36,739 nt of DNA from a virus: the IMG/VR virus record IMGVR_UViG_3300032296_001095, positions 1 through 36,739 of that record. One strand, written 5' to 3'. Of this stretch, positions 8,653-20,023 are shown piece after piece. Made by a program: the position numbers and the translations under genes. Under the pieces are notes generated by a model, which was not told the origin of the DNA, searched no databases, and saw only the letters and a program-made list of their open reading frames with translations. Each line of letters starts with the position of its first letter. The first letter of the stretch is position 1.

Positions 8653-10023
8653 CTAGCCTAAGACATTGTAGTCTGCTATAGCCGCGCCCGACCTTGCTCT
8701 GCCGGCCGTGCCTCTGAACGGACGCCGACCCTTAGCGAGATACCGTAGCGCGTCAGCGTAGTGTGACGTCCAGTCGTGCAGCGGCCTGTCTTTGAACTTC
8801 TGCAGTCGATCGTCGTATTCGCGCCGGTACTGCCTGATCGCATCGAGCGCACGAACCATGCGAGCTCGAGCATCATCGCGTGTCTCGCCTGGGAATGGGT
8901 CAGGCGAATAGTTCCACTCGACCACCGGCAACATCTGGCGCACGGCCTGGATGCCGTCATCGACCGAGTCAGCCTCAAGGATGCGCGGCCTGAGACCGTA
9001 GCCAGCCGCGGTCTCCATGCGTGACTTGCCGCTGCCCCACTCCTTGACCGCTCCGTCGTGAGGCCAGATGTGATCGCCGTAGACATAATCGATCGCCAGC
9101 AGCTTCTTGGCATACCACTCGAGGCCGACGCCGCTGCCCTCGAGCACGTTGATGATCCTGATCTTGTGGCCGACGAATTGGTAAAACCAGATGACCGTTG
9201 AGTCGCCCACGCCAATGTCCCACGCGGTGCCGACAGGCTGGCCGACAACGTGCGGGAAGCTTGCGACCCGGCCTTCCTGCTCTGCTCGAGAGATGGCATC
9301 GCCAAAGTACGCGCCAGGGATGTCGGCATCGAAGTCGCAGTAGTATTCCTGCCGGATGATGGCTTCGGCTTCCTTGTCGCCGCGCTCCATGCGGAGCTCT
9401 TTGCGCTCGCGCTGGATGATGTCTTTTGAGATGGCCTTAGTGTCCTCGACCGTCAGCACCTGCCCGAACCATTGTGGGTCATCCTTGGCGTACTCAACGA
9501 GGCGGGCAAAGTGATTGCGGCCGCGGGGCGTCGAGATGAAGATCGCCCAGCCGTTGTTCTCAGCGAGGATCGGTCGCAGGAACGCCCACGCATTCGGGTC
9601 GGCCATCGCGTACTCGGAGAAGACAACCCCGGTCGGAGGTGAGCCGACTAGGCTGTCGTAGTTGTCTGAGCCCACCACCTGCCAGGTCGATCCGTTCTTG
9701 AAACGGATGAACATATCCTGCTCGCGGGTCGATTCTCTCAGCTCGAGCGGGAATGCGTCATCGATGCGGCGCTTGCCGGTGTGTGGGTTCACGGCGTCCC
9801 ACAGGGCTTTGCGCGACTGGTTGGCTTGCGGGAGCATATGCCAGTAAGAGCCTGGCCGCATCATCGCGGAAACCGCGGCCCAATGCAGGGCGAGCTCGTC
9901 CTTGCCCGATCGACGGTGCCACGCCAGGGCCAGACGTTTAGCGCCACCCTCGAGGGCAGCCCACGCCGGCATCTGGTAGTGACGCGGTCGCCAGCCGTTA
10001 GCCGGTATCGTTATTTCCGGCAT
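8653..10023 (-). CDS. terL: Terminase large subunit
   Basis: This 456-aa packaging motor has ATPase and nuclease halves. Walker A is HRRSGKDE at residues 36-43. Walker B is VVFSEYA at 133-139, with catalytic Glu137 (Ser replaces the preceding Asp, as in related podophage terminases). The coupling motif is STPRGRN near 164-170. The C-terminal RNase H-like nuclease is marked by WDIGVGD at 268-274 and a late HDWTSHYADALRYL segment, supplying acidic metal ligands. It should translocate DNA through the portal and cut concatemers. Its start overlaps the end of terS by 26 bases. The length is typical of T7-group and related podophage large terminases, short for the SPP1 group. Confidence 0.95.
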   Translation of the reverse strand: MPEITIPANGWRPRHYQMPAWAALEGGAKRLALAWHRRSGKDELALHWAAVSAMMRPGSYWHMLPQANQSRKALWDAVNPHTGKRRIDDAFPLELRESTREQDMFIRFKNGSTWQVVGSDNYDSLVGSPPTGVVFSEYAMADPNAWAFLRPILAENNGWAIFISTPRGRNHFARLVEYAKDDPQWFGQVLTVEDTKAISKDIIQRERKELRMERGDKEAEAIIRQEYYCDFDADIPGAYFGDAISRAEQEGRVASFPHVVGQPVGTAWDIGVGDSTVIWFYQFVGHKIRIINVLEGSGVGLEWYAKKLLAIDYVYGDHIWPHDGAVKEWGSGKSRMETAAGYGLRPRILEADSVDDGIQAVRQMLPVVEWNYSPDPFPGETRDDARARMVRALDAIRQYRREYDDRLQKFKDRPLHDWTSHYADALRYLAKGRRPFRGTAGRARSGAAIADYNVLG

Positions 10024-10402
10024 CCGTCATCCGCATGACGTTGATGGTCAGGCCGACATTGCCCGAGTGCTCGAGCTCTGCCTTGTCGCCGTACCGCTTG
10101 GGCTTGAGTTTGGACGCTACCCACTTGCGGGCATCGACCATGATCCGCTTGTGATTGGGGTCGATCGTGTCGTCATCCGCAATCTCGACGATCCGATCAG
10201 CGTGCGCCTCGCCTTGCTCTTCGCGTGCGCGTGCGTATTGCTCAGAGAACTCTTTATGCTTTCCCAACCACAGGAAGATGCTAGCCATTGACGGCATATC
10301 GTCATCGCGGCATATCGACCGCAACGACTCTCCCGTCGCCAGACGCTCACAGATGCGAGACGTCAGCTCTGGGCTGTAGTCTGTAGGTCTGCCTCCCGGC
10401 AT
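9998..10402 (-). CDS. terS: Terminase small subunit
   Basis: This 134-aa protein has an N-terminal helix-turn-helix (about residues 10-55, ICERLATGESLRSICRDDDM). A helical oligomerisation region follows, with the EARHADRIVEIADD-type motif seen in terminase small subunits (here GEAHADRIVEIADDD). A C-terminal segment contacts TerL. It recognises the packaging site and stimulates TerL. It overlaps terL by 26 bases. The start ATG overlaps the stop of the preceding small gene as TAATG, supporting this start. Confidence 0.88.
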   Translation of the reverse strand: MPGGRPTDYSPELTSRICERLATGESLRSICRDDDMPSMASIFLWLGKHKEFSEQYARAREEQGEAHADRIVEIADDDTIDPNHKRIMVDARKWVASKLKPKRYGDKAELEHSGNVGLTINVMRMTDAGNNDTG

Positions 10403-10563
10403 TACTTCGGCATCAGTCTGCGAGCGGCCGCGCCCTTACCCGCAGCCTTACGGGCTACGCTCATGGCAATGGCGACGGCTTGCTTTTGGGGTCGACCGGC
10501 CTTCATCTCGGTTGAGATGTTCTTGCTGATCGTGGCTTTGCTGTAACCTTTCTTGAGTGGCAT
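10402..10563 (-). CDS. Small basic protein, DUF6496-like (53 aa)
   Basis: Reading leftward from ATG at 10563, this encodes a 53-aa Lys/Arg-rich protein beginning [17 protein letters not shown] central [13 protein letters not shown] motif is characteristic of small proteins I recall as DUF6496, frequent in phages and environmental viruses. The stop overlaps terS as TAATG. Strong positive charge suggests nucleic-acid binding, but no function is established to my knowledge. It is too short for routine calls yet matches the family over its full length. Confidence 0.75.
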
Positions 10564-10593
10564 GGCTATTTAACCTTTGCTTTGTTTCGTTGA

Positions 10594-11016
10594 TTAACGC
10601 GGCGTCATTCGTTTGCCGGCGGCTCCCTTGGCTCGCCAGCTCTTCAACCATTCTTCGCCTTGCTTCTGATCCTTTAGCCCGATCTCGTCAGGATTGATTC
10701 CGGTCTCTTCCATCAATCGGCTTTTCCATGCTGTCTTGTGTCCGGCCTTCTTCAACGGAATTTTACGCCCAAACTCGTTCTCAGCATACGAGCCCCAATG
10801 GAACTTGTTTTCGTCGTGAGGATCGCGCTCCGGTCGAACGCCCATCTTCCATGCCGTGAAGTAATCGTAGTCTGCGCTCTCAGACAGGTTGGGCTCTTCG
10901 CCGTACTGTGCGACAAACTCCTTGAACCAGGGAGTCTTCCTGATTTCCGCTTCTACCTTCTGGCGTTCACCGGATTTAGAGCGAACCGCAGATTTAATTT
11001 TTTCAGCAAACGGCAT
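10594..11016 (-). CDS. Conserved phage protein of unknown function (140 aa)
   Basis: This 140-aa soluble, highly charged, mostly helical protein contains a WFKEFVAQYGEEPNL segment and a DYFTAWKMGVRPERDP segment. The latter recalls a family of phage proteins usually encoded near terminase genes. There is no TM segment, cysteine cluster or known catalytic motif. It is the largest member of a run of small genes upstream of terS. It begins four bases after the preceding stop with AGGA upstream. Packaging-associated or virion-associated roles are possible but unproven. Confidence 0.7.
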   Translation of the reverse strand: MPFAEKIKSAVRSKSGERQKVEAEIRKTPWFKEFVAQYGEEPNLSESADYDYFTAWKMGVRPERDPHDENKFHWGSYAENEFGRKIPLKKAGHKTAWKSRLMEETGINPDEIGLKDQKQGEEWLKSWRAKGAAGKRMTPR

Positions 11017-11019
11017 GGC

Positions 11020-11325
11020 TTAGTTTCCTTTTGCCTTGTTGCGTTTACTTATCGCCGCGGCTTTCGCTTTGGCGTCTTCTTTTGAGCTGGCGCCCCACGC
11101 TTTGAGGGCGAGGGCGAGTCGGGTCGGTCGTCCTTTGTCATCGACCATCGGCCCAGGAGCATTCCCCATGCGCGCCAGAAAGCTTGCTCTGCGCGGATTA
11201 TCGCCAGACTTGACCGGAGCTTTAAGTTTTCCACCTGTTTCGCGAGCATAGCTGGCCCTCCCTTTCTCGTTGAGGCCGCCCTTTGGGTTCTGTCCTTCTT
11301 TACGTTGCCACGCCGCTGTTTTCAT
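11020..11325 (-). CDS. Small basic conserved protein (DUF6321-like)
   Basis: This 101-aa Lys/Arg/Gly-rich protein has the pattern WQRKEGQNPKGGLNEKGRAS, then SGDNPRRASFLARMGNAPGP, then RLALALKAWGASS. I recognise it as a widespread family in phages and aquatic virus genomes (DUF6321, from memory). No activity is known to me, and the charge and Gly-rich loops suggest nucleic-acid or capsid-DNA interaction. The start ATG overlaps the upstream stop as ATGA. Confidence 0.75.
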   Translation of the reverse strand: MKTAAWQRKEGQNPKGGLNEKGRASYARETGGKLKAPVKSGDNPRRASFLARMGNAPGPMVDDKGRPTRLALALKAWGASSKEDAKAKAAAISKRNKAKGN

Positions 11326-11582
11326 TGCTCGGCCACTTCCCTCATTTCGCTGGGACGACCGCCGCCGCCACCGCCACCGCCACCCCCGCCGCCATACACC
11401 GGGGTCACGGGCCTTGGGCCGCCGAGGCCGGCGATCGCTATGCCCACCGCAGCGCGTGGGCCAGGTCTTGCGATACGCCCAACGGCGTTACCGAGGCTGC
11501 TTCGACCGCCCGTTCTGCGAAACGGATCATAGCCGCCACCTTCCTCGAGGTCTCCGTTGTCTCCAAGTACCGCGGCCTTCAT
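11322..11582 (-). CDS. Small protein with 12-glycine run
   Basis: This 86-aa product has an acidic N-terminus (LGDNGDLEEGGGYDPF), an Arg/Gly/Pro/Ala middle and an uninterrupted run of twelve glycines (encoded by 11358-11393) before a short polar C-terminus. Both ends are ATGA-coupled to neighbours, which supports translation despite the low complexity. Length polymorphism of the glycine run would be expected from the trinucleotide repeat. No family is recognised. Confidence 0.55.
   Translation of the reverse strand: MKAAVLGDNGDLEEGGGYDPFRRTGGRSSLGNAVGRIARPGPRAAVGIAIAGLGGPRPVTPVYGGGGGGGGGGGGRPSEMREVAEQ
11358..11393. repeat. GGN trinucleotide run encoding polyglycine
   Basis: These 36 bases are an almost pure alternation of GCC and ACC triplets on the plus strand (GGC, GGT and GGG codons on the minus strand), encoding twelve consecutive glycines. 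The mixed codons suggest selection on the peptide or an old expansion rather than a fresh slippage product. Confidence 0.9.
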
Positions 11583-11812
11583 CGATAGCGCCTCGTCTTC
11601 TCTGCGATCTTCTTCGGCTGGGCCACAAACTGCTGGCCCTTCGCCTTGCCTTCCCGCTTCGCTCTCGTCGTCGCCGCGTATTCCTGCGCGCTCAAAGCCT
11701 TAATCGCGGCCTCTGGCAAGTAACGCTCGCCGGTCTGGCTCGAGGGTTTGCCGGACTTGGTGCGCCATTTCTGCTCGCCCCAAACCTTCAGCGAGAACTG
11801 AGGGGCTTTCAC
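11579..11812 (-). CDS. Small basic conserved protein (KAPQFSLK family)
   Basis: The likely start is GTG at 11812, overlapping the preceding stop as GTGA. This gives a 77-aa Lys/Arg-rich protein that begins KAPQFSLKVWGEQKWRTK and continues with RYLPEAAIKALSAQEYAAT and a QFVAQPKKIAEKT tail. I recall closely similar proteins in phages and in large aquatic viruses (DUF5872-like, uncertain). An upstream in-frame extension to 11875 lies inside the neighbouring gene and is unlikely. Function unknown; nucleic-acid association is inferred from charge. Confidence 0.72.
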   Translation of the reverse strand: MKAPQFSLKVWGEQKWRTKSGKPSSQTGERYLPEAAIKALSAQEYAATTRAKREGKAKGQQFVAQPKKIAEKTRRYR

Positions 11813-11985
11813 TTGTAGCCGCCTCCGCGCTCTTTGTACAGTTTGGCGAGGAGCTGCGCCTTTCGGGCAGACCACTCGCCAGCGCCAGTTCCGTGCGTTG
11901 CTTTGCCCTTTATCGACTCAAACAACTTCTTCCGCATTCCAGGCTTCGTGTAGTTGCCCGCGGCGTTAACTGTGCTCTTCGCCAT
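11809..11985 (-). CDS. Small basic conserved protein (58 aa)
   Basis: This 58-aa frame reads MAKSTVNAAGNYTKPGMRKK at its start and ends in a WSARKAQLLAKLYKERGGGY motif. The two-part pattern is shared by many tiny phage and aquatic-virus proteins I have seen, often adjacent to the KAPQFSLK-type protein, as here. Its stop overlaps that gene's GTG as GTGA, so the pair is translationally coupled. Function unknown. Confidence 0.72.
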   Translation of the reverse strand: MAKSTVNAAGNYTKPGMRKKLFESIKGKATHGTGAGEWSARKAQLLAKLYKERGGGYK

Positions 11986-11991
11986 ACATCC

Positions 11992-12195
11992 TCACGCTGC
12001 CGGTGGCAGGTCGTTGTCAACTGCAGCCCTGCGTTTAACCTTCGCCCCTCGAGCGAATGTCAACACATCGGCCTTCGGCCTTGGGGGCGGCTCTGGGTTG
12101 CACTCCCAGCATCGAATCCAATCGCCCATGTCGTCAGCGATCCAAGCCTTGTTCTCACAGTTGAGACAGGGCGCAAGTCGAATGCCGTCAGTCAT
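11992..12195 (-). CDS. Small zinc-ribbon protein (67 aa)
   Basis: This 67-aa protein has two CxxC knuckles (C10-C13 and C29-C32) separated by a tryptophan-containing beta hairpin, the signature of a small zinc ribbon. A Pro-rich linker and a basic tail (FARGAKVKRRA) follow. ATG at 12195 overlaps the stop of the upstream membrane-protein gene as ATGA, so the longer frame starting at 12216 is rejected. A nucleic-acid-binding regulator is plausible but untested. Confidence 0.7.
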   Translation of the reverse strand: MTDGIRLAPCLNCENKAWIADDMGDWIRCWECNPEPPPRPKADVLTFARGAKVKRRAAVDNDLPPAA

Positions 12196-12338
12196 GTCAG
12201 AAGCCGCACCACCCAAATCGCCACGGACAGAAACACGCCGAGCAGTATCCCGAGGGATACGGTGGCATAGGCAAACCAGACGACGTCACTCAGGAATCCA
12301 GTCGCCGTTGGTTCGCTTGCAGTATCTCTCTCGCCCAT
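12192..12338 (-). CDS. Small single-TM protein (48 aa), short unlisted gene
   Basis: Reading leftward from ATG at 12338 gives 48 aa: a polar N-terminus (MGERDTASEPTATG), then a continuous hydrophobic segment at about residues 19-44, ending RLLT. The stop TGA overlaps the zinc-ribbon gene's ATG as ATGA (12192-12195), which strongly suggests it is real. It overlaps the previous gene by 49 bases, and its ribosome site is weak, so expression may rely on coupling. It could be a membrane modifier made early or a small holin-like protein. Confidence 0.6.
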   Translation of the reverse strand: MGERDTASEPTATGFLSDVVWFAYATVSLGILLGVFLSVAIWVVRLLT

Positions 12339-12475
12339 ATGCTTGGATCGTGATCTCTGCCCCAATTTCCGATTTTACGCAAGACCCGCTCATACGCAAG
12401 CACCGTCACCACCAATTCTGCAATGGTCGCGACGTTCTCGAGCTCGTCAATCTTGATGTCGAATTCCTTCCTCAT
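12290..12475 (-). CDS. Small hypothetical protein (61 aa)
   Basis: This 61-aa mostly helical protein (FDIKIDELENVATIAELVVT) has a GGAGG ribosome site four bases before the ATG. It overlaps the preceding gene by 29 bases and the small TM gene by 49. No motif or family is recognised. The strong ribosome site and amphipathic helices make it a likely real gene. Confidence 0.6.
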   Translation of the reverse strand: MRKEFDIKIDELENVATIAELVVTVLAYERVLRKIGNWGRDHDPSIWAREILQANQRRLDS

Positions 12476-12689
12476 CCTTCCTCCGTAACCAATCGGGTAC
12501 GTCGTTCCCGATCTTATACGGCTCTGGTAGCCCTAAATCGACCCGAGCCAACTCCCGCTCGACTGAAACGAGTTCGGCGCGCATAACCTTTATGCGGTGC
12601 AGGAGCTGTCGCTTCCGCTCGCCCTTCGTCAACGGCTTCACAGAGTTGTCGAGTAAGGTGTCGAGCTCTAAGGTCAACAATGTGCTCAT
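12447..12689 (-). CDS. Small helical protein (80 aa)
   Basis: ATG at 12689 has AGGAG seven bases upstream and yields an 80-aa charged helical protein. A basic helix runs at about residues 15-30 (KPLTKGERKRQLLHRI), with a leucine-rich heptad pattern after it, so it may form a coiled coil. An in-frame extension upstream to 12737 has no ribosome site. Function unknown. Confidence 0.65.
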   Translation of the reverse strand: MSTLLTLELDTLLDNSVKPLTKGERKRQLLHRIKVMRAELVSVERELARVDLGLPEPYKIGNDVPDWLRRKDEEGIRHQD

Positions 12690-12755
12690 GCCATTTCTCC
12701 TGTCTGCAAAAAGTGTAGTACCGAGTGCCACAGACATTGCAGGTCTGCAACCTTT

Positions 12756-13079
12756 TTACCGTTGTGGAAGTTCGTTTCGGATCAGCGGGAGGGCGTCCTC
12801 CAGCCTCATCAATACTAGCCATTTCTTTCCGTCTCCGCGCATTGCAACAATCGGAACATCGTTCGGCCCACAAGTGGCCTCAACTTGTTCGACAAACTCG
12901 TAGACCGAGATGCGTTTTCTACGCTTGACCTCGACCCTGAATTTGCCGATCGTCAGGTCATCGCCGCCGTCTCTGGCCTGTCCCAGGTTGCGGCTCACGA
13001 CCCAGCCGAGCTCTTCGGATAACGTGGCTGCTAACTCGCGTTCGCCCGCGGCTCCCTTCCTCCGTTGGCTGGCGCTCAT
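12756..13079 (-). CDS. PD-(D/E)XK nuclease, Holliday-junction-resolvase-like
   Basis: This 107-aa protein has the order of an Hjc-type PD-(D/E)XK fold: an N-terminal basic region with E13 (GAAGERELAATL), D40/D41 after a DGG turn, and E50-V-K52 within FRVEVKRR. A helical region (YEFVEQVEATCG) and a last beta strand (WLVLMRLED) follow. Such enzymes cut four-way junctions to resolve replication and recombination intermediates before packaging, and would complement the Erf/exonuclease module on the other strand. It is ATGA-coupled to the preceding gene. An alternative is a nicking or VRR-like nuclease of unknown substrate. Confidence 0.8.
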   Translation of the reverse strand: MSASQRRKGAAGERELAATLSEELGWVVSRNLGQARDGGDDLTIGKFRVEVKRRKRISVYEFVEQVEATCGPNDVPIVAMRGDGKKWLVLMRLEDALPLIRNELPQR

Positions 13080-13291
13080 GTCTCACCCCTCGCCCGAATC
13101 GCGTCGGCATACCGTTGCCCCCACAACAGGCCGTCCTCCTGACACACCTCCGCACACGCCTCCCGCTCGGCGGCGGCAACGAGGGTCGCGAATCGTTCAA
13201 GTTCAGACCATGTGATAACACCGGATTCTTTTATCCACGCCATCGGCAACTTCGCATCTTTCGCCAGCCGGATGGTGTCATCGCGGGTCAT
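13076..13291 (-). CDS. Small conserved protein with EACAEVC motif
   Basis: This 71-aa protein carries a central EREACAEVCQEDGLLW segment and ends in YADAIRARGE. The same two-part motif recurs in small proteins of many proteobacterial phages and prophages, which supports a proteobacterial host. The function is unknown to me. Both ends are ATGA-coupled. Confidence 0.7.
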   Translation of the reverse strand: MTRDDTIRLAKDAKLPMAWIKESGVITWSELERFATLVAAAEREACAEVCQEDGLLWGQRYADAIRARGET

Positions 13292-13491
13292 TTGACCGCC
13301 CTCTCAATCTCAGCCTCGAGCGAATCAATGCGCTGCTCAAGCAATGCCGCCTCATGCCAGAGACCGGACTGCCGTATCTTCGCCAGAGCATTCCTCACGC
13401 TCGTGTCCCCGCGTTGTCCGTATGCCCACGGTGCTGCGGCGAGTTCGTCTTTCCACGCGCCGGCTGGGCTTTCGTTATCGATGTTCTTCAT
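13288..13491 (-). CDS. Small hypothetical protein (67 aa)
   Basis: ATG at 13491 overlaps the stop of the preceding gene as ATGA, so 67 aa is preferred over the longer frame starting at 13542. The sequence has a WAYGQRGDTSVRNALAKIRQ segment and a C-terminal coiled-coil helix (LLEQRIDSLEAEIERAV). No family is recognised. A small oligomeric regulator or adaptor is possible. Confidence 0.62.
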   Translation of the reverse strand: MKNIDNESPAGAWKDELAAAPWAYGQRGDTSVRNALAKIRQSGLWHEAALLEQRIDSLEAEIERAVK

Positions 13492-14039
13492 GCGTCCTCC
13501 GAGCTGAACCAGTCTGTTTGTCGCCTCAAGAACTTCGGCCACTCGAGCTCTTCCGTGAACGATCGATCCTCGACTAACACATGGTTGGTCGGTTGCGCTG
13601 TGATGCGGCCGTTATCCAGCGCACAGAAATAAAACTCTTTCGATTGCTCGGGTGCCGCGCTGAATGCGTCTGCGACCGGCACCACCGTGAATAGGTACTC
13701 ACCGCGCAGCTCACGCTTGTCTCGCAGCTTCACCCGCACATTGTTCGACATCAGGTAGGGATATTCGATGGTCGAGAACTGCCAGCCATACGCATCCCAA
13801 GTCTGTGCGTCGGCAGGGCTCCAAGGTTTATCGGTCGGCTTCGATGCAACCTTGTGCAACGGTACGTTACGGTAGACCGCGCCACCCTCGAGTAGGCAAT
13901 GGCATCCCCACGATCGACCTGGGTAACTCGTTACGCCAAACCATATCGCTCTCAACCAGTCATGCTCACCGATCGCGTTCGGTTCGATCCAAATGTAGTG
14001 ATGCCGAGGCAGCGCACCAGCGTGCGTGTAAAGTGTCAC
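13488..14039 (-). CDS. Conserved hypothetical phage protein (183 aa)
   Basis: This 183-aa soluble protein is rich in aromatic residues and begins at a GTG in a GTGA overlap. Notable segments are HHYIWIEPNAIGEHDWLRAI, a WGCHCLLEGGAVYRNVPLHK stretch and a DAYGWQFSTIEYPYL stretch. The pattern looks like a phage-specific globular domain of mixed alpha/beta type, but I cannot name it. It sits in the replication-proximal leftward cluster and is likely expressed early or middle. Confidence 0.68.
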   Translation of the reverse strand: MTLYTHAGALPRHHYIWIEPNAIGEHDWLRAIWFGVTSYPGRSWGCHCLLEGGAVYRNVPLHKVASKPTDKPWSPADAQTWDAYGWQFSTIEYPYLMSNNVRVKLRDKRELRGEYLFTVVPVADAFSAAPEQSKEFYFCALDNGRITAQPTNHVLVEDRSFTEELEWPKFLRRQTDWFSSEDA

Positions 14040-14353
14040 TTTGCTCTGTCCTTCAATCGTTGCAACCCGCGTTCACCCCATAGCGATCGCACCAACCCGA
14101 CAAGGTGCGGATCACCGAGCACCAACTTCGGGTCGGCTGATCGGATCGCCTCGCCCACCTCGCCCTTGAAGAATTCCAAATTGCCGGGGTCGAGTCTGGC
14201 ATAGCGCGCATCGAGCAGTCGCAGTTTGCCGAGCGGAGTCGCTGCCGCCTCACGCCAATGCTCTGCTGCCGATCGTGTTGCCCAGGCTGTGCGGTCAGGC
14301 GCTGGGGCTGGTTCCGGCTTCGATGCCGGCCATCGAGACATCTCATCGCCCAT
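14036..14353 (-). CDS. Hypothetical protein downstream of replication gene (105 aa)
   Basis: This 105-aa protein has a Pro/Ala-rich N-terminus (residues 8-25) and a helical C-terminal domain. It overlaps the DUF1376 gene by 11 bases and has a G-rich ribosome site. Its position directly after the replication-initiation-like gene is where lambda-type phages carry a helicase loader. It shows no P-loop, so a loader role is only positional speculation. Confidence 0.6.
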   Translation of the reverse strand: MGDEMSRWPASKPEPAPAPDRTAWATRSAAEHWREAAATPLGKLRLLDARYARLDPGNLEFFKGEVGEAIRSADPKLVLGDPHLVGLVRSLWGERGLQRLKDRAK

Positions 14354-14834
14354 CTCTTACCCCCTTTCCCAACATCTCCGATACTGACGTCGGCCCCCTT
14401 CTGCCACCCCTAGAGGTATTGGAAAAGGGTTGCAAAAACTCAGTTTGGTTATTGGTTATTGGATATTGGTTATTGGAGAGCATTGCCTTCGCATTGCCAT
14501 CGCTATGCGTTCGCATTGCGCTCGCATCCCATCGACGCTTGGCAGAGTCGGCTGCCTTCTTGCTTTTTTCCAGCATCTTGGCGATCTCTTCCTCGACTCG
14601 CTTGTGTTGCCAGCCGTCATCAGTCAGCAAGAAGAACTCGCGCAGCACGGAATCGACCGCGGCCTTTTCCTGCCTGGTCGCAGCTCTGACGATGCGGTAA
14701 GTCTCGTTCGCCGGGATCGGTTTTTCGGTTGCGTAGTATCGATCGAGCAGCAGGGTGTAAACGCCGTGCTCGAGGATCGACAAATGATTAGCGTCTCGGG
14801 AGTAATCCCCGATATGCCTTGGATAAAAATTCAT
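14343..14834 (-). CDS. DUF1376-type replication initiation protein
   Basis: This 163-aa protein starts NFYPRHIGDYSRDANHLSIL. Its first 80 residues match the DUF1376 domain of phage and prophage replication proteins, likely a winged-helix DNA-binding domain. A charged helix follows (VEEEIAKMLEKSKKAADSAK). The tail is low-complexity (SNNQYPITNNQ) and is encoded by tandem DNA repeats that look like origin iterons. ATG at 14834 has GAGG upstream and overlaps a preceding frame's stop as TAATG, so the longer start at 14879 is rejected. It probably binds its own coding sequence to start replication with host enzymes, as lambda O does; this is inferred. Confidence 0.8.
   Translation of the reverse strand: MNFYPRHIGDYSRDANHLSILEHGVYTLLLDRYYATEKPIPANETYRIVRAATRQEKAAVDSVLREFFLLTDDGWQHKRVEEEIAKMLEKSKKAADSAKRRWDASAMRTHSDGNAKAMLSNNQYPITNNQTEFLQPFSNTSRGGRRGPTSVSEMLGKGVRDGR
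14447..14531. other. Candidate replication origin: iteron-like repeats and AT-rich tract
   Basis: On the plus strand, four tandem heptamers (GGTTATT, GGTTATT, GGATATT, GGTTATT at 14447-14474) are followed by five imperfect 11-bp units: AGAGCATTGCC, TTCGCATTGCC, ATCGCTATGCG, TTCGCATTGCG, CTCGCATCCCA (14477-14531). Neither unit length is a multiple of three, although the DNA is coding, so the repetition is at DNA level. Iterons of about one helical turn beside an AT-rich tract inside an initiator gene are the layout of the lambda-type origin. Origin function is inferred. Confidence 0.55.
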
Positions 14835-15028
14835 TATTTCCTCGCATGGGTAAGCCCAAACCATGCGTGGCATTGACAAGTCAGATTCCCCCTGACTAAC
14901 CTATCGCCACGCTTCAGTACATTTCCGAGCGTATGACCATCCCCCGGTCGCGTCAAGGCCCCTTCACCGGGGTCTTGTCGTTTTTGGCGGTAACGGATCA
15001 CCGGCTGCATTACAGCCGACGAGGACAT
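14834..15028 (-). CDS. Possible small ORF between regulator and replication gene
   Basis: This 64-aa frame lies where lambda carries cII: after the Cro-sized regulator and before the replication gene. It is Arg/Gly-rich with no recognised domain. Its stop overlaps the DUF1376 start as TAATG, which favours reality, but the ribosome site (AGGA, nine bases from ATG) is weak. A strong terminator for the opposite strand lies inside it. It may be a real regulator or a non-coding leader whose frame is open by chance. Confidence 0.4.
   Translation of the reverse strand: MSSSAVMQPVIRYRQKRQDPGEGALTRPGDGHTLGNVLKRGDRLVRGNLTCQCHAWFGLTHARK
14873..14902 (+). promoter_or_regulatory. Candidate promoter for short antisense RNA
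   Basis: A perfect TTGACA (14873-14878) is followed, after 18 bases, by TAACCT (14897-14902), which keeps the most conserved -10 positions (T, A and final T). It points rightward, against the leftward replication operon, and transcription would start near 14909. A strong intrinsic terminator lies about 50-75 bases downstream with no open gene between, so the product would be a short RNA. Confidence 0.45.
14909..14985 (+). ncRNA. Predicted OOP-like antisense RNA (about 77 nt)
   Basis: A rightward promoter-like sequence and a strong terminator bracket about 77 bases that are wholly antisense to the small ORF at 14834-15028. In phage lambda, OOP RNA is a short transcript antisense to the end of cII, sited between cII and the replication gene O. 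The arrangement here (regulator, small ORF, replication gene with the antisense RNA opposite the small ORF) is the same. The predicted ends are by eye. Transcription and function are unproven. Confidence 0.45.
14951..14985 (+). terminator. Rho-independent terminator, rightward
   Basis: A 9-bp stem (CAAGGCCCC with GGGGTCTTG, one G-U pair) and a 6-nt loop extends past one T-T mismatch by two further pairs and runs directly into TTTTT (14981-14985). It terminates the plus strand only, since the minus-strand copy has no U-run. No rightward gene ends here, which is why a short antisense RNA is proposed. Confidence 0.8.
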
Positions 15029-15065
15029 ACCCGCTATCCTGCCATTGCCTTGACGTTAAATCGGC

Positions 15066-15314
15066 TCATAAGCCTTCTGTGTCCGGTTGAGGGCGCAGTC
15101 CGTCCTTGATCTTACGGATTAGGCGCTGGGTGCTGCGGTTCTGTTCGCCAGACTCCAGCTCCTGCACGACCTCGCCAGCCAGCTCACGCAGGGCGAACCG
15201 CTCCGGCACCTTCCCAGACTTGACCCACCTGGAAACGTAAGCGCGGGTCACACCAAAGTGGCGGGCCACCTCGCTCTGGTTGCCGTATTTCTTGATCAAT
15301 TCATCGATGTCCAT
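15066..15314 (-). CDS. Cro-sized helix-turn-helix regulator
   Basis: This 82-aa protein has a helix-turn-helix at about residues 12-33 (QSEVARHFGVTRAYVSRWVK) near the N-terminus, as in Cro/C1-family proteins, and a charged helical tail. ATG at 15314 has AGGAGG just upstream. The in-frame region further upstream crosses the control region and is not coding. It is the first leftward gene and faces the rightward operon across about 130 bases holding TTGACA-containing repeats. It is the only evident transcription regulator, so it probably controls the early switch by binding there. No full-length CI-like repressor was found. Confidence 0.82.
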   Translation of the reverse strand: MDIDELIKKYGNQSEVARHFGVTRAYVSRWVKSGKVPERFALRELAGEVVQELESGEQNRSTQRLIRKIKDGLRPQPDTEGL

Positions 15315-15362
15315 GAAGCCTCCTGTAAACGATTGACATCGTGCCTTAAATCTTTTTTTGTT

Positions 15363-15412
15363 ACAAGTGTTGACATGGCTTTTGCACGGGTCTAAGATCA
15401 CAACTGTTGACA
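15363..15412. promoter_or_regulatory. Repeated operator-like sites in divergent control region
   Basis: Two direct copies of ACAA[G/C]TGTTGACA (15363-15375 and 15400-15412) match at 12 of 13 positions and are 37 bp apart. The first covers the -35 box of the rightward promoter and the second covers its predicted start point. A third TTGACA lies at 15333-15338 near the regulator's start. Binding by the HTH protein at 15066-15314 would repress the rightward operon. The assignment to that protein is inferred. Confidence 0.45.
15370..15398 (+). promoter_or_regulatory. Rightward early promoter (sigma-70)
   Basis: TTGACA (15370-15375), a 17-base spacer and TAAGAT (15393-15398) form a near-consensus sigma-70 promoter, with a predicted start near 15405. 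It would drive the rightward operon from the 89-aa gene through the recombination cassette. It is the best promoter match I found in the window and implies use of host RNA polymerase. Confidence 0.75.
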
Positions 15413-15423
15413 GACACAACGCA

Positions 15424-15440
15424 TCCACAGACAGGAGCAA
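15424..15440 (+). repeat. Repeated translation leader, copy 1
   Basis: TCCACAGACAGGAGCAA, containing the AGGAG ribosome site of the 89-aa gene, recurs with one mismatch at 15727-15743 before the next gene. Identity extends upstream of the core ribosome site, beyond what a Shine-Dalgarno motif needs. Confidence 0.7.
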
Positions 15441-15444
15441 TGAC

Positions 15445-15714
15445 ATGACCAAAATCATCAAGGTGAGCAGCGGCGGTTTGGCCCCCACGATGCGTAGCGG
15501 CGCCCATGAGCGCGTACCGGCAACATGGGGCATCGAAGTCAACGGCCAATTGGTCGCCCGCATCTTTACGGTTAGCGGCGACAGCATGGTCGTCGATGCC
15601 GCGTCTGGTCGTCAGTTGTTCACGACGATGATGGCCCCGCGCAAGCGCCGCCAAAACCGCGTTGCAATCGCAAAAGATTGGGCCATCAAACACTTCAACG
15701 AGGTGGCGGCGTAA
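15445..15714 (+). CDS. First early gene, unknown function (89 aa)
   Basis: This 89-aa basic protein is translated from ATG 15445 with AGGAG seven bases upstream. It is the first gene of the rightward operon and lies directly behind the near-consensus promoter, so it should be made at once after infection. Segments include RVPATWGIEVNGQLVARIF and a basic MMAPRKRRQNRVAIAKDW tail. No family is recognised. Leading early genes of this type often counter host functions, but that is only positional reasoning. Confidence 0.72.
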   Translation: MTKIIKVSSGGLAPTMRSGAHERVPATWGIEVNGQLVARIFTVSGDSMVVDAASGRQLFTTMMAPRKRRQNRVAIAKDWAIKHFNEVAA

Positions 15715-15726
15715 GCCGCCCCTCAC

Positions 15727-15743
15727 TCCACAGATAGGAGCAA
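15727..15743 (+). repeat. Repeated translation leader, copy 2
   Basis: TCCACAGATAGGAGCAA differs at one position from the leader at 15424-15440 and holds the ribosome site of the cysteine-rich gene. Either the leader was duplicated with an ancestral gene, or both messages bind the same factor. Confidence 0.7.
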
Positions 15744-15745
15744 CC

Positions 15746-16081
15746 ATGAGCCGCATCGCAAAAACATACCAGTACGAAGACCGCGTCCGCGTAGACGGAC
15801 TCGCCCATTGCAGCACCTGCAACAAATTTGGCGAGATCGCTGAAGAAGGATTCACGGCGAACTGGTGGGGCGACGAAATTCCTTGTTTCGTTTGCAAGCA
15901 TTGCACCGGTTACATCCTTACCTGCAATTCATGCGATTCCAAACCAGCCGCCTGTGACGATTGGTGCATGGATTGTTTTGTCCAGCAACTCATCTCCGAA
16001 CCCGACCGGATCGATGACGAAGCTACCAGCGAGTATGTCCAGTTTCGTGAAGCTGCGCGCATTGCGCGGGAGGCCGTATGA
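15746..16081 (+). CDS. Cysteine-rich zinc-finger-like early protein (111 aa)
   Basis: This 111-aa protein has cysteine pairs at about C22/C25, C47/C50/C53, C60/C63 and C70/C74/C77, enough for two or three zinc sites. A helical acidic tail follows. The density of CxxC knuckles suggests a compact zinc-ribbon or treble-clef protein, probably binding nucleic acid or another protein. ATG 15746 follows an AGGAG site. The longer frame beginning at 15662 lies inside the previous gene and is rejected. No family name can be given. Confidence 0.72.
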   Translation: MSRIAKTYQYEDRVRVDGLAHCSTCNKFGEIAEEGFTANWWGDEIPCFVCKHCTGYILTCNSCDSKPAACDDWCMDCFVQQLISEPDRIDDEATSEYVQFREAARIAREAV

Positions 16082-16263
16082 AGGTGAAGAACATCGAGCT
16101 CGAGCGAGTCATCGAAGACTGCCGCACAGGCAAGTCGATCGTGACCCCCGAGAACGTCGAGGCGCTGCTGCGCTATATCTATCAGCTCGGCAGCATGGAC
16201 GGATACATCGAGGGCGTCCGATACGCAACGACGCCGTTTTCAGAAGAAGGAGAGCAACTGTGA
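16078..16263 (+). CDS. Small early protein (61 aa)
   Basis: This 61-aa helical protein overlaps the cysteine-rich gene as ATGA and is followed by a GTGA overlap. It contains IELERVIEDCRTGKSIVTP and a LLRYIYQLGSMDGYIEG helix. The overall look is of a small soluble phage accessory protein. No family or function is recognised. Confidence 0.65.
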   Translation: MKVKNIELERVIEDCRTGKSIVTPENVEALLRYIYQLGSMDGYIEGVRYATTPFSEEGEQL

Positions 16264-16388
16264 AGAAGTACTCAGCGTGGCCCCAGGTCACCATCATCGT
16301 CCTGCTTTATCTGCTCGTTGCCGCACTTGACCCGTGCGGCGACGGCGGCTGCACACCGGAAGAGGAGGCAGCCAGCTATGCACGATGA
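16260..16388 (+). CDS. Small single-TM early protein (42 aa)
   Basis: The start is GTG in a GTGA overlap (16260-16263). The 42-aa product has a basic N-terminus (KKYSAW), a hydrophobic segment at about residues 8-24, and an acidic tail with two cysteines (DPCGDGGC). It could be a small inner-membrane protein with the tail in the periplasm, where the cysteines might pair. Early membrane peptides can affect superinfection or membrane potential, which is untested here. It is too short for routine calling, but the coupling supports it. Confidence 0.6.
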   Translation: MKKYSAWPQVTIIVLLYLLVAALDPCGDGGCTPEEEAASYAR

Positions 16389-16527
16389 TCCTTGGAACGA
16401 TGACGATACCTGGTGGCAGCAGTTAGACGCCGAGATGCAGGAACGAGAAGAGGAAGAGCGCATCGAGGCTTGCAACAACGCAATCGAAAATTACATGGCA
16501 GAACAGGAGAACACTCATGCAGTCTGA
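16378..16527 (+). CDS. Small acidic early protein (49 aa)
   Basis: This 49-aa acidic protein starts at ATG 16378 with AGGAGG nine bases upstream. It consists of a Trp/Asp-rich N-terminus (DDPWNDDDTWWQQL) and a glutamate-rich helix (EMQEREEEERIEACNNAIEN). The high negative charge suggests a DNA mimic or an inhibitor of a basic protein, a common early-phage strategy, but this is speculation. It overlaps the erf start by 11 bases. The longer frame beginning at 16318 is rejected because it lies in the previous gene. Confidence 0.6.
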   Translation: MHDDPWNDDDTWWQQLDAEMQEREEEERIEACNNAIENYMAEQENTHAV

Positions 16528-17056
16528 TTCAATCGCCGCACTCGCGGCCGCACTCTCAAAGGCGCAGGGCGACATCACCGGCGCGCTCAAGGATTCAAGT
16601 AATCCTTTTTTCAAGTCCAAGTACGCCGACCTCGCGTCCTGCTGGGACGCTTGCCGGCAGCAGCTCTCGGCCAATGGCCTCGCCGTGATCCAGACGACCG
16701 ACATCATTGCCGACAAGCCGGTGCTGATTACGACCCTCGCTCACTCGAGTGGGGAGTGGATCAAGTCCATCACACCGATTCTCACCAAGGACGACAGCCC
16801 CCAGGCACAGGGCTCCGGAATTACCTACGCTCGTCGCTACGCGCTCGCCGCGATCGTCGGCCTCGCCCAGATCGATGACGATGCCGAGGCAGCACAGGGC
16901 CGCGGCAAGAAGGAAGGATTCGACATCGCGCTCGCTGAGAAGATCAGCAACTGCAAGACGATCGATGAGCTGACCAAGTTATTCCAATCGCTCCCAGAGG
17001 CGGCCCGGGCCTCCGCGAGTTCCGCATTCTCGGCCCGCAAGAGAGAACTGCAATGA
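16517..17056 (+). CDS. erf: Erf-family single-strand annealing protein
   Basis: This 179-aa protein matches the Erf family of phage recombinases. It has an N-terminal ALAAALSKAQGDITGALKDS segment, a core with KSKYADLASCWDACR, and the family signature QAQGSGITYARRYALAAIVG followed by an acidic DDDAEAAQG stretch. Erf forms rings that anneal complementary single strands made by an exonuclease, allowing circularisation and recombination after infection. AGGAG lies seven bases before ATG, and the stop overlaps the exonuclease start as ATGA, so the partners are co-translated. Confidence 0.9.
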   Translation: MQSDSIAALAAALSKAQGDITGALKDSSNPFFKSKYADLASCWDACRQQLSANGLAVIQTTDIIADKPVLITTLAHSSGEWIKSITPILTKDDSPQAQGSGITYARRYALAAIVGLAQIDDDAEAAQGRGKKEGFDIALAEKISNCKTIDELTKLFQSLPEAARASASSAFSARKRELQ

Positions 17057-17664
17057 TTGCCCAAGGCACTCTCGAGTGGAAACTGCAGCGGCTGGGGCTC
17101 GTCACCGCGAGCCGTATCGCAGATGTCATGGCCCGTACCCGCGGCGGGTTCTCGGCAACTAGGCAAAGCTACATGATGGCGCTCATCACCGAGCGCCTGA
17201 CCGGCGAGCCGATGCAGACCTATTCCAACTCTGCAATGGACTGGGGCCGCGAGAAGGAAGGCGAGGCGAGAGCAGCCTACGCCGCGCGCACCGGCACCAT
17301 CGTCGAGGAGATCGGATTCATCCGGCACCCAACGCTTGAGGCCGGCGCTAGTCCTGACGGGCTTGTCGGCACCGATACGATCATCGAGATCAAATGCCCG
17401 AACAGCCAGACGATGGTGGAGTGGATCGAGAGCCGCGAGATACCGACCCGCTACCGATTACAGATTCAATGGCAATTAGCGGTCACCGGCCGCGACATGG
17501 CTCACTTCGTAGGTTACGACCCGCGACTGCCCGAGCACCTGCGACTGCTCATCATCGAGGAGCCGCGCAACCAGCAGATGATCCTCGAGATCACCGGCGA
17601 GGTCGAACGATTCCTGGGCGAATTAAACGAGAAGCTCAAAAAGCTGAAGGAGATGAGACTGTGA
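17053..17664 (+). CDS. YqaJ-type recombination exonuclease
   Basis: This 203-aa nuclease has the YqaJ/lambda-Exo motifs: TASRIADVM at 18-26, GREKEGEARAAY near 65-76, SPDG at 100-103 with D102, EIK at 112-114 (the ExK of PD-(D/E)XK), and QIQWQLAVTG at 137-146. It would resect double-stranded ends 5' to 3', exposing single strands for Erf next door. ATGA coupling to erf and GTGA coupling to the SSB-like gene mark a recombination operon. Length and motifs are complete with no missing catalytic residue. Confidence 0.92.
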   Translation: MIAQGTLEWKLQRLGLVTASRIADVMARTRGGFSATRQSYMMALITERLTGEPMQTYSNSAMDWGREKEGEARAAYAARTGTIVEEIGFIRHPTLEAGASPDGLVGTDTIIEIKCPNSQTMVEWIESREIPTRYRLQIQWQLAVTGRDMAHFVGYDPRLPEHLRLLIIEEPRNQQMILEITGEVERFLGELNEKLKKLKEMRL

Positions 17665-17957
17665 CTGTGCAATACGATCCGAATATGAAAGGCGTCCTCT
17701 TCCCGAACGACAAGCAAGGTAACGATCGCAGACCCGACTACCGCGGCAGCGCCGTGATCGAGAGCGTTGATTACAACATCAGCGTCTGGGTCAAGAAGAG
17801 CAAGAAGTCAGGCGACGAATACCTGAGCCTTTCGTTTGAGAAGAAGGGGGAGGGCAGACTGAGCCGCGCTGGGCAGCCGACCAGACAACAGCAGCCGCAA
17901 GTGACCGAGGACAACTGGGCGACGGCCGACTTCAAAGACGATGCCGTGCCGTTTTGA
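17661..17957 (+). CDS. SSB-like single-strand DNA-binding protein
   Basis: This 98-aa protein starts at GTG in a GTGA overlap with the exonuclease. Residues 8-60 (MKGVLFPNDKQGNDRRPDYR, then YNISVWVKKSKKSGDEYLSL) form a beta-rich domain resembling DUF736-type proteins. A disordered Gln/Arg linker and the acidic tip DFKDDAVPF follow. Bacterial SSB proteins end in an acidic DDDIPF-type tip that recruits partners, and the likeness here is striking. With Erf and exonuclease adjacent, a single-strand-binding role is likely. The oligonucleotide-binding fold itself is inferred. Confidence 0.78.
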   Translation: MTVQYDPNMKGVLFPNDKQGNDRRPDYRGSAVIESVDYNISVWVKKSKKSGDEYLSLSFEKKGEGRLSRAGQPTRQQQPQVTEDNWATADFKDDAVPF

Positions 17958-18361
17958 TGAACCGCATATTTCCCAAAGGCACACCACCAGACCAGATCGC
18001 GCAAGCGGTCTCGGTCTTGGTGCGCGGCCTCGACTTCAAGAAGAGCTGGAAGGTCAGCGTCGAGGAGTTCAAACCCAAGCGCAGCAACCAGGCTAACGCT
18101 TACCTCTGGGGCGTTGTGTATCCCTGCTTCCTCGAGGGCTCGAACGGGATGCTGGACGGATGGGAGAGGGAAGACCTACACCAGTTTTTCTTGATGCAAC
18201 ACTTCGGAGAGGAAACGCTCGAGGTTGGCGGCCGTACCTACTGCCGGCCGTTCCGAGGATCGAGCGGTCTCAGCCGAGAGGAGTTCACCGAGTATCTTGA
18301 GTTTCTGTCGCGCAAGGCGGCAGAGCTCGGGATCGTGATACCGGAGCCATCATATGAATAG
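17957..18361 (+). CDS. ninB: NinB-like recombination protein
   Basis: ATG 17957 overlaps the SSB-like stop as TGATG and gives 134 aa resembling NinB (Orf) of lambdoid phages. Matching features are a SWKVSVEEFKPKRSNQANAY region and a long C-terminal half ending in a LEFLSRKAAELGIVIPEP helix. NinB binds single-stranded DNA and SSB and helps load annealing proteins. Its place behind the SSB-like gene fits that role. The assignment is by pattern and context. Confidence 0.78.
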   Translation: MNRIFPKGTPPDQIAQAVSVLVRGLDFKKSWKVSVEEFKPKRSNQANAYLWGVVYPCFLEGSNGMLDGWEREDLHQFFLMQHFGEETLEVGGRTYCRPFRGSSGLSREEFTEYLEFLSRKAAELGIVIPEPSYE

Positions 18362-18695
18362 ACAGGAAGAGATGCGCCAGCAGGTGACCGACTTCCACAA
18401 GCGGCACCCCGAGGTCTGGCAGTTGTTCGTTAAGTTCACATTCCAGATGATCGATCGTGGTTACCGGAACTATTCCGCAAAGGCGATCTTCGAGCGCATC
18501 CGATGGGAGAAGGATAGCGTCGGCGGCGACGGCATCACCTCGTTCAAACTGAACAACAACTACACGGCCTTTTACGCTCGTCGCTTTGCCAAGGCATACC
18601 CCGAGCACGGCGACTTCTTCCGCACCCGGCAGCAGACATCCGTTGAGGGATTCGCTACGCACCGGCCAGAGCTGACGCCGGCCTGCTACGCATGA
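18354..18695 (+). CDS. Hypothetical early protein (113 aa)
   Basis: This 113-aa soluble, aromatic- and Arg-rich protein overlaps ninB by 8 bases. Residues 15-60 are helical (HKRHPEVWQLFVKFTFQM), followed by a WEKDSVGGDGITSFKLNNNY region reminiscent of phage proteins encoded near nin-type genes. A DNA-associated role is possible from its position between recombination genes, but no family can be named. Confidence 0.65.
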   Translation: MNRQEEMRQQVTDFHKRHPEVWQLFVKFTFQMIDRGYRNYSAKAIFERIRWEKDSVGGDGITSFKLNNNYTAFYARRFAKAYPEHGDFFRTRQQTSVEGFATHRPELTPACYA

Positions 18696-18979
18696 ACCTA
18701 CGCAAGGCGGCCAAGGGGCGAGGCTGCATGATCCGCATCCCAGGAGTCTGCAACCATAACAGCGAGACGGTCGTGCTCTGCCACGTTCGCCTAGCCGGGG
18801 TCAGCGGCATGGGCATGAAGTCTGACGATCTGCTAGGCGCCTGGGGCTGCAGCTCATGCCACGCCCATGTAGACGGTCAGGCCACAGGCTCAGGCTTTTC
18901 AAAAGAAGAGCTGCGAATCATGCACCTCGAGGGCATGGTCAGGACGATCGCCCAGCTCAGGAAGGAAGACCTGGCTTAG
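18692..18979 (+). CDS. YbcO-like (DUF1364) HNH-type nuclease
   Basis: This 95-aa protein matches DUF1364/YbcO in pattern: cysteines and histidines at C12, C20, C30-H31, C53, C56 and H57, with RGCMIRIPGVC and LGAWGCSSCHAHVDG segments. YbcO-type proteins are small phage- and prophage-encoded nucleases with a zinc-stabilised HNH-like core, found in the nin regions of lambdoid phages. ATGA coupling puts it last in the rightward operon. Its end overlaps the oppositely oriented gene at 18957 by 23 bases. Confidence 0.82.
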   Translation: MNLRKAAKGRGCMIRIPGVCNHNSETVVLCHVRLAGVSGMGMKSDDLLGAWGCSSCHAHVDGQATGSGFSKEELRIMHLEGMVRTIAQLRKEDLA

Positions 18980-19202
18980 GCGAAAGCGAGTCCCATGCGT
19001 TTTTTGCAAGGCCAAGGTAGTACGGCTCTGCGCCAAGCACTTCATCAGCTTTTGGATCATTCGGGTCAAGCACGCAGCGCCAATAATTCTGCGAAATGAC
19101 TGCGCCGTCCTTGAGAACTTCGGTGGTTTTGCGAACCCCAATTTTCCCGTCGGAGTGAATGTTAAACTCACTCACAAAAACTCGTTCTTGAAAACTAGCC
19201 AT
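18957..19202 (-). CDS. Small protein at end of tail operon (81 aa)
   Basis: This 81-aa protein is encoded after the second fibre-like gene, with AGGAG six bases before the ATG. It starts MASFQERVFVSEFNIHSDGK and has mixed charged and aromatic residues. Its place beside fibre genes suggests a virion or fibre-assembly role, but I recognise no family. It is the last leftward gene and converges on the rightward operon with overlapping 3' ends. Confidence 0.68.
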   Translation of the reverse strand: MASFQERVFVSEFNIHSDGKIGVRKTTEVLKDGAVISQNYWRCVLDPNDPKADEVLGAEPYYLGLAKNAWDSLSPKPGLPS

Positions 19203-19252
19203 GTTTATCTCCTATGGTAGGACTGTCCGTCTGCACCGTCTGATGCAGATAA

Positions 19253-20023
19253 TTAAATAAAATATGTTAGGGTAAATCGCATGAAGCTATCGTTTGCAAA
19301 ATCTGCATTGGTAATGTTGCTGTCTACTCCAGCATTTGTTACTTCTGCAAGAGCTATCGATGTTGCTCCTGCCACCGTTCTGCCCATCATAAAATCCGCA
19401 AAGGTAATGTTTGAAAAGTAAGCTATGGCAATACCGCCAAAATTAGGTTCGTCTGCCGCAACTGTAAACGGCAGTCCAGTAATTGTTGCGGTGCCCGTTG
19501 ATGAACCTTTGCTCGTTAGTGCAACATAACCAACACACGTTACTTGTCGTCCAATTCTGACGTATTTGCTTTGGTCTGTTGTATTTGAATAAGTAATTCC
19601 AGTCGACGCGCCTCCGAACGCAATTCCGACTGTCCAACTCCCTTCTTCGTAATCATCCAGCGTATTCGCATTTGTGCTGGCCGACTGCGTGGCGGGAAAG
19701 GTGACGCCCGCGCCAGATGCGGATGGCGTGGCGTTGCCGACGCTGATTGTTGAAGCAAAAGTCTGTGCGCCCGTAAACGATTGGGCAGCGTCGGTTCTCG
19801 CCGCCGTAAAGTTGGCATCAGGAACTGTCATTACGCGGGTAGCCGCTGCTGCAGGCCCAGCAACTTGAAGCACTCCGCTAGTTGCATTTGACTGAATTTG
19901 TTTTGGTCTCAAATCATTATTTGCAACCTTTACCGTTGCGCCGCTTTGAACAATTGGCAGCACTTCAGTACCCGCAAGCGGGGTGCTGGCGCCAGTAAGT
20001 TGTGAAATCTTTTTATCGGCCAT
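19253..20023 (-). CDS. Fibre-like structural protein, copy 2
   Basis: This 256-aa beta-rich protein shares its N-terminal 40-residue module (MADKKISQLTGAS, then TEVLPIVQSG) with the fibre-like protein at 7639-8421. The middle is Ala/Thr-rich shaft-like sequence. From about residue 120 it carries the LDDYEEGSWTV motif that opens a widespread C-terminal domain of phage fibres. The codon usage is more AT-rich than that of the head genes. It follows the tailspike and a chaperone-like gene, so it is probably an exposed receptor-binding or accessory fibre. Confidence 0.75.
   Translation of the reverse strand: MADKKISQLTGASTPLAGTEVLPIVQSGATVKVANNDLRPKQIQSNATSGVLQVAGPAAAATRVMTVPDANFTAARTDAAQSFTGAQTFASTISVGNATPSASGAGVTFPATQSASTNANTLDDYEEGSWTVGIAFGGASTGITYSNTTDQSKYVRIGRQVTCVGYVALTSKGSSTGTATITGLPFTVAADEPNFGGIAIAYFSNITFADFMMGRTVAGATSIALAEVTNAGVDSNITNADFANDSFMRFTLTYFI

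Follow-up and report, generated by a model that had tools for sequence, protein, structure and literature searches.

What occupies the gap that separates a regulator gene from a replication gene, on the strand that codes for neither, in an uncultivated virus of bacteria? The question arises in a single virus record from IMG/VR, 36,739 bp long and possibly incomplete, the whole of which is called the window here. An earlier note on this DNA had read in it a short antisense RNA resembling the OOP RNA of phage lambda, directed against a small gene that precedes the replication gene.

The locus and its predicted RNA

The leftward replication operon starts with a DUF1376/primosomal-protein gene at 14343-14834 on the minus strand (Pfam PF07120, 2.2e-30; PHROG 3992, primosomal protein, 7.9e-39). 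Upstream of it, across a gap of 231 nt, is a gene for a Cro/YdaS-like HTH regulator (15066-15314, minus strand; weak YdaS/Cro-type matches), and the RNA element lies inside this gap on the strand opposite to both flanking genes. The lambda-like order that the earlier note had described, with an antisense-oriented RNA between the HTH regulator and the replication gene, is therefore the order found. A divergent recombination operon with ERF, YqaJ, and NinB-type genes runs rightward. The same note held that a lambda-type repressor and integrase are absent, and indeed neither an integrase nor an S24-type repressor was found in this record, which may be incomplete. The region separating the HTH gene from this operon has three copies of TTGACA (15333-15412, plus strand), and two of them sit within the direct repeats ACAAGTGTTGACA / ACAACTGTTGACA, which are likely to be operators of the HTH protein. 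Below the replication genes, the leftward operon also encodes a protein matching PHROG 3704, auxiliary 'ferredoxin' (13488-14039, minus strand; 1e-20). GC skew takes no sharp turn at the RNA locus.

The putative sRNA promoter, P+, occupies 14873-14902 on the plus strand and is composed of TTGACA (14873-14878), an 18-nt spacer containing the inverted repeat AGTCAG..CTGACT, and TAACCT (14897-14902). The pattern TTGACA-N16-18-TANNNT is present twice in the window, against 0.32 copies expected, and the other copy is probably the promoter of the divergent recombination operon at 15370. P+ was not listed by a generic promoter scan because its second hexamer has only 3/6 matches. If transcription starts 7 nt after the -10 box and ends at the U-run, the product is a 77-nt sRNA (14909-14985, plus strand), and sRNA and promoter together span 14873-14985. 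The predicted RNA folds into hairpin A (14909-14932; ACGCUU/GAGCGU, 12-nt loop), hairpin B (14935-14949; GACC-AUCCCCC-GGUC, with a C-rich loop and covarying arms), and a terminator hairpin followed by the U-run (14950-14985), all on the plus strand. The terminator stem (14954-14977, plus strand, TCGTTTTT) has nine pairs, six of them G-C, the most pairs among the 15 terminators listed in 10000-20000. The folding energy of 14909-14985 is -30.5 kcal/mol (z = -4.6), which was not equalled by any of 200 shuffles. Thus the TTGACA, the TAACCT box and the strong plus-strand terminator that had been claimed are present, and conserved in relatives, and the proposed length of about 77 nt agrees with the prediction, both ends of which are predicted ones. 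Overall, there is good support for an RNA gene that is conserved, structured and terminated and has a promoter of its own; that it is transcribed, and from this start, we infer from the letters.

The target named in the earlier note did not hold up. The interval 14834-15028, which it gave for the RNA, is that of a mechanically called 64-aa ORF on the minus strand and of no gene. For this ORF neither Pfam nor PHROG gives a match. Most relatives have the frame broken, with gap lengths that are not frame-keeping, and the weak tblastn matches of the ORF in relatives coincide with the conserved DNA element. With no family match and a broken frame, it was judged non-coding and rejected as a gene. 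That the RNA serves as an antisense silencer of a 64-aa protein, as had been suggested from the overlap of ORF and RNA, is scarcely credible in view of the same unconserved frame, missing family match and placement of the tblastn matches.

Conservation among uncultivated relatives

Searching IMG/VR with the terminator alone returned 101 stretches, and a second terminator pattern returned at least 120, so the total of elements is larger. TTGAC is found upstream in 100/100 distinct terminator-anchored IMG/VR elements (3% in shuffles); its distance to the stem is 82-86 nt in 97 of the 100, and the P+ spacer is 17-18 nt in 93 of them. Among loci found by similarity of the DUF1376 or HTH protein, most of those with an intergenic gap have the same RNA element. 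A comparison of RNA folds in relatives, which the earlier note had proposed as a check, supports the structure: the terminator hairpin is present in 65/65 distinct RNAs inspected, hairpins A and B in nearly all, and the C-rich loop of hairpin B in most members.

In an alignment of 17 sequences, 96% of the cells pair and the covariation is 0.124 compared with 0.053 for shuffled alignments (0/500), the 17 having been picked for matching 5' arms, a choice that favours hairpin A. RNAalifold did not recover hairpins A and B from the full alignment of 39 sequences, as the 5' part had been misaligned by MAFFT. For hairpin B, a 4-bp complement is present in 50/59 distinct elements, compared with 6% when the arm of another element is used, and 14 arm types occur; the changes in this hairpin are compensatory.

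The covariance model R1 was built from the 17 sequences, and its 76-bit match to 14906-14983 in the window is a match to one of its own members. Outside the model, R1 recovers the RNA, with position and strand unchanged, from a divergent subgroup (E 3e-5 to 2e-3), and it finds the RNA upstream of DUF1376, on the opposite strand, in 35/63 further loci. Weak R1 matches on the opposite strand that share the terminator stem (E about 0.005) were seen at L041 3013-3088 (-) and L084 5295-5370 (-), with others at L095 361-436 (-) and L108 7903-7977 (+); these are possibly just the palindromic stem, or else a mirrored RNA.

No family in Rfam 15 reaches its gathering score for the RNA element. The sole sub-threshold match is RF02499 (Atu_C4; E 0.78), at 18 bits far under the gathering score of 80. 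Prophages of cultured species were rejected as carriers, as the terminator pattern is absent from 84,980 cultured or binned genomes, and seven DUF1376 homologues from these genomes are all without the RNA. Named phages gave no DNA match to the element, and five of them with DUF1376 homologues gave no R1 match. Within the DUF1376-homologue set, the RNA is always tied to the HTH/replication junction, and in relatives the element stands at the head of the same operon, its transcription directed away from that operon, including loci in which DUF1376 has been replaced.

Opposing promoter, leader and candidate origin

A second putative promoter, P-, lies inside the sRNA gene and faces P+ (TTGACG-17-TACGCT, 14928-14956, minus strand). 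Its start would be at about 14921 and that of P+ at about 14909, so by consensus the 5' ends of the two RNAs would share about 13 nt. The P- pattern TTGAC-N17-19-TAnnnT occurs at a fixed place in 97/101 elements. Its -10 box varies (TACGCT, TACTCT, TAGGCT, TATTTT, TATCCT, TACGAT), with TA...T always kept. P- is lost in the L012, L028 and L146 groups, and as judged by eye it is kept without hairpin A in L160 and L209. Inverted repeats are present in the spacers of both promoters, and within one phage the two palindromes do not match each other.

The leftward mRNA would carry a leader hairpin (14865-14912, minus strand; GCGTGGC..GCCACGC plus inner arms) that contains P+. Of 85 distinct elements, 53% have outer arms that pair over at least 6 bp, compared with 17% when swapped and 7% when shuffled, so the arms covary. 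A second leader hairpin, CGCAUGG/CCAUGCG (14840-14870, minus strand), adjoins the DUF1376 Shine-Dalgarno and has a CGC in common with the first. With the initial 14 nt of the P- mRNA blocked, predicted Shine-Dalgarno accessibility is lower in 15/19 leaders, slightly in several (from 0.44 to 0.29 in the window), and the second leader hairpin extends in most predictions. Such blocking would mimic a bound sRNA, and the drop is a weak, model-based hint: the 19 leaders are related, the change is modest, and blocking any 5' stretch tends to free 3' pairing.

About 384 nt from the 5' end of the sRNA, inside DUF1376, is a candidate replication origin with repeats and AT-rich CCAATA units (14450-14527, minus strand). 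The near-invariant DNA block GGATGCGAACGCATAGCGAACGCAATGCGAACG..ATGCTATCCAATAACCAATATCCAATAACCAATAACC in this interval is also present in L154, L156, L168 and L230, although the DUF1376 proteins are only about half identical. In L230, which is Acinetobacter phage phiAC-1, this block contains stop codons when translated in the DUF1376 frame. Since the block is near-invariant and is interrupted by stop codons in phiAC-1, it is conserved as DNA and is a candidate for an origin common to many DUF1376 phages of different hosts. The lambda O-gene iterons start at 39034, and lambda oop has its start near 38675 to 38685; the published value is 38685 (PMC5869508). Distance and orientation from oop to iterons are similar to those from the present sRNA to the candidate origin.

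In relatives without DUF1376, the same element is followed by a long structured-looking leader, of type X or Y, and then by genes. Type X, a conserved and highly structured-looking leader of ~240 nt, replaces DUF1376 between the sRNA element and the next gene in L039, L042, L044, L046, L062, L063, L104, L127 and L133. By eye, several of these precede genes resembling the protein of window 14036-14353, and two loci tested against Rfam at E 0.5 gave no match. Type Y is another structured-looking region, of ~200 nt, in the same place in L038, L048, L050, L066, L074, L118 and L138. It has no Rfam match, and a small HNH endonuclease gene comes next in L038, L066, L074 and L118; it is possibly a mobile RNA/HNH element. 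One downstream gene type in the X/Y relatives matches the C-terminal part of 'replication initiation O-like'. A replication-related gene thus comes next wherever DUF1376 is present and, as judged from PHROG matches, in some of the type-X/Y loci.

Relation to known systems and possible function

In lambda, OOP RNA and cII overlap over 52 bases, and the RNA exerts its effect via RNase III (PMC5869508). The present RNA is similar in its predicted length and intrinsic terminator, its position in the gap between an HTH regulator and an initiator gene, its orientation away from the initiator gene, and the presence within that gene, a few hundred bp away, of origin repeats. It differs in that OOP covers the end of cII whereas the present RNA overlaps no coding sequence, stopping 80 nt before it would reach the stop codon of the HTH gene in the window and 10-19 nt before it in many relatives, and in having an opposing promoter inside the sRNA gene. 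With filters off, R1 has no match at the oop position in the lambda oop region, and by eye no LexA-like site was noticed. Therefore, since there is no coding overlap and no model match in lambda, the RNA may be called OOP-like in layout and is not placed as a member of OOP. The likeness claimed in the earlier note stands for place and antisense orientation, and for size and terminator as predicted; it does not extend to an overlap with the regulator or to a match to lambda.

Replication genes of plasmids have countertranscribed RNAs such as RNAI and CopA. These are likewise small hairpin RNAs opposite a replication-gene leader, whereas the present RNA overlaps just the first ~13 nt of the P- mRNA and is found in a phage, beside an HTH gene. 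In the switches of P2 and 186, two promoters face each other and their 5' ends overlap, as consensus and conservation suggest for the two putative promoters here; the difference is that one product here would be a terminated sRNA and not a repressor mRNA.

Among the sequences compared, the promoter pair, the RNA structure, the terminator, the orientation and the position are all conserved. By position and strand alone, the RNA gene lies opposite the leader of the replication gene. We lean, by somewhat more than an even chance, towards a cis-encoded countertranscript which, together with the face-to-face promoters, restrains expression of the replication gene. P+ would yield a 77-nt RNA of three hairpins at the head of the replication operon, pointing away from it. 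Opposite the RNA are P- and the intercistronic stretch of an HTH-to-DUF1376 transcript that may be made. The RNA would be fully complementary to the HTH/replication-gene gap on leftward mRNA reading through from the HTH promoter, and its pairing could mark this mRNA for cleavage. Complementarity would extend to the initial ~13 nt of the P- mRNA as well, where pairing may open the outer stem of the leader hairpin, allow the CGCAUGG/CCAUGCG hairpin beside the Shine-Dalgarno to form, and so lower DUF1376 translation. P+ and P- may moreover be too close for two polymerases to start at once. The net effect would be that replication-gene expression is delayed or limited beside the origin, and with it probably the onset of viral DNA replication, comparable to what OOP does at the replication genes of lambda. 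We infer the mechanism, the pairing and the negative sign of the effect; counting against this reading, P- is missing in some subgroups and the start sites rest on consensus.

Two more specific contacts were considered and set aside. Between the hairpin-A loop and the DUF1376 ribosome-binding site, pairing extends over 9-16 bp in L002, L004, L027, L049 and L136, a strong match in one subgroup only; the match in the window is 6 nt and not significant (p = 0.25). As the downstream gene differs between relatives, a mechanism specific to this site cannot be general. A kiss between loop B and a G-rich leader loop looks possible in the window by eye; it is not general, because CCCCC is missing from the P+ spacer of many relatives.

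It is also conceivable, though unlikely, that the sRNA acts in trans, its C-rich loop B and its loop A binding the G-rich Shine-Dalgarno of other phage or host mRNAs, so that the replication gene next to it is incidental. The C-rich loop in most members, CCUCC in loop A of the L028/L034 group, and an RNA structure that persists where the downstream gene changes would all fit; the constant tie to the HTH/replication junction in the DUF1376-homologue set and the lack of a significant site at the DUF1376 ribosome-binding site of the window, in a local test, do not. We give a similarly low probability to the view that transcription itself regulates, with P+ and P- mutually exclusive as in P2-type switches and the RNA a by-product. 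P+ and P- overlap and are co-conserved, and in lambda the loss of the convergent promoter pO alters replication through its effect on transcription from pR (PMC3985674). However, hairpins A and B are kept in the L028 and L146 groups, which have no P-.

Considerably less probable is an RNA that exists for the origin, with transcription from P+ opening or priming it. The candidate origin is near, at about 384 bp inside DUF1376, and the oop-to-iteron spacing in lambda is about equal, but P+ points away from the candidate and transcription would stop after 77 nt, and OOP is stated in a review not to be a primer (PMC12197685). Just as improbable, or slightly more so, is a DNA element that produces no RNA, in which promoter-like letters form paired palindromes to which a regulator, for instance the HTH protein, binds. 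Inverted repeats do occur in both promoter spacers. Against such an element, the two palindromes within a phage are unlike each other, a conserved terminator would be unneeded, and L012 and L017 share the P+ spacer while differing in their HTH recognition helices; for this last reason the P+ palindrome was rejected as an operator of the HTH protein.

Beyond the preferred countertranscript reading, we put forward a broader and more doubtful proposal. These elements may represent an undescribed RNA family of uncultivated phages, with two facing promoters, each of them embedded in the hairpin of the RNA made from the other, and sRNA and mRNA leader may form a two-state switch that times replication. 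The module would have been kept while the origin region downstream was swapped among three unrelated types, i.e. DUF1376 with repeats, RNA type X, and RNA type Y with HNH.

To our knowledge, few cultivated phages are known to encode sRNAs. The present RNA, missing from Rfam, is found in more than 100 uncultivated viral contigs beside the replication module, in a geometry like that of lambda with a different overlap. The covariance model R1 is now available for testing, and the family offers a testable case that small RNAs beside phage origins may have arisen more than once.
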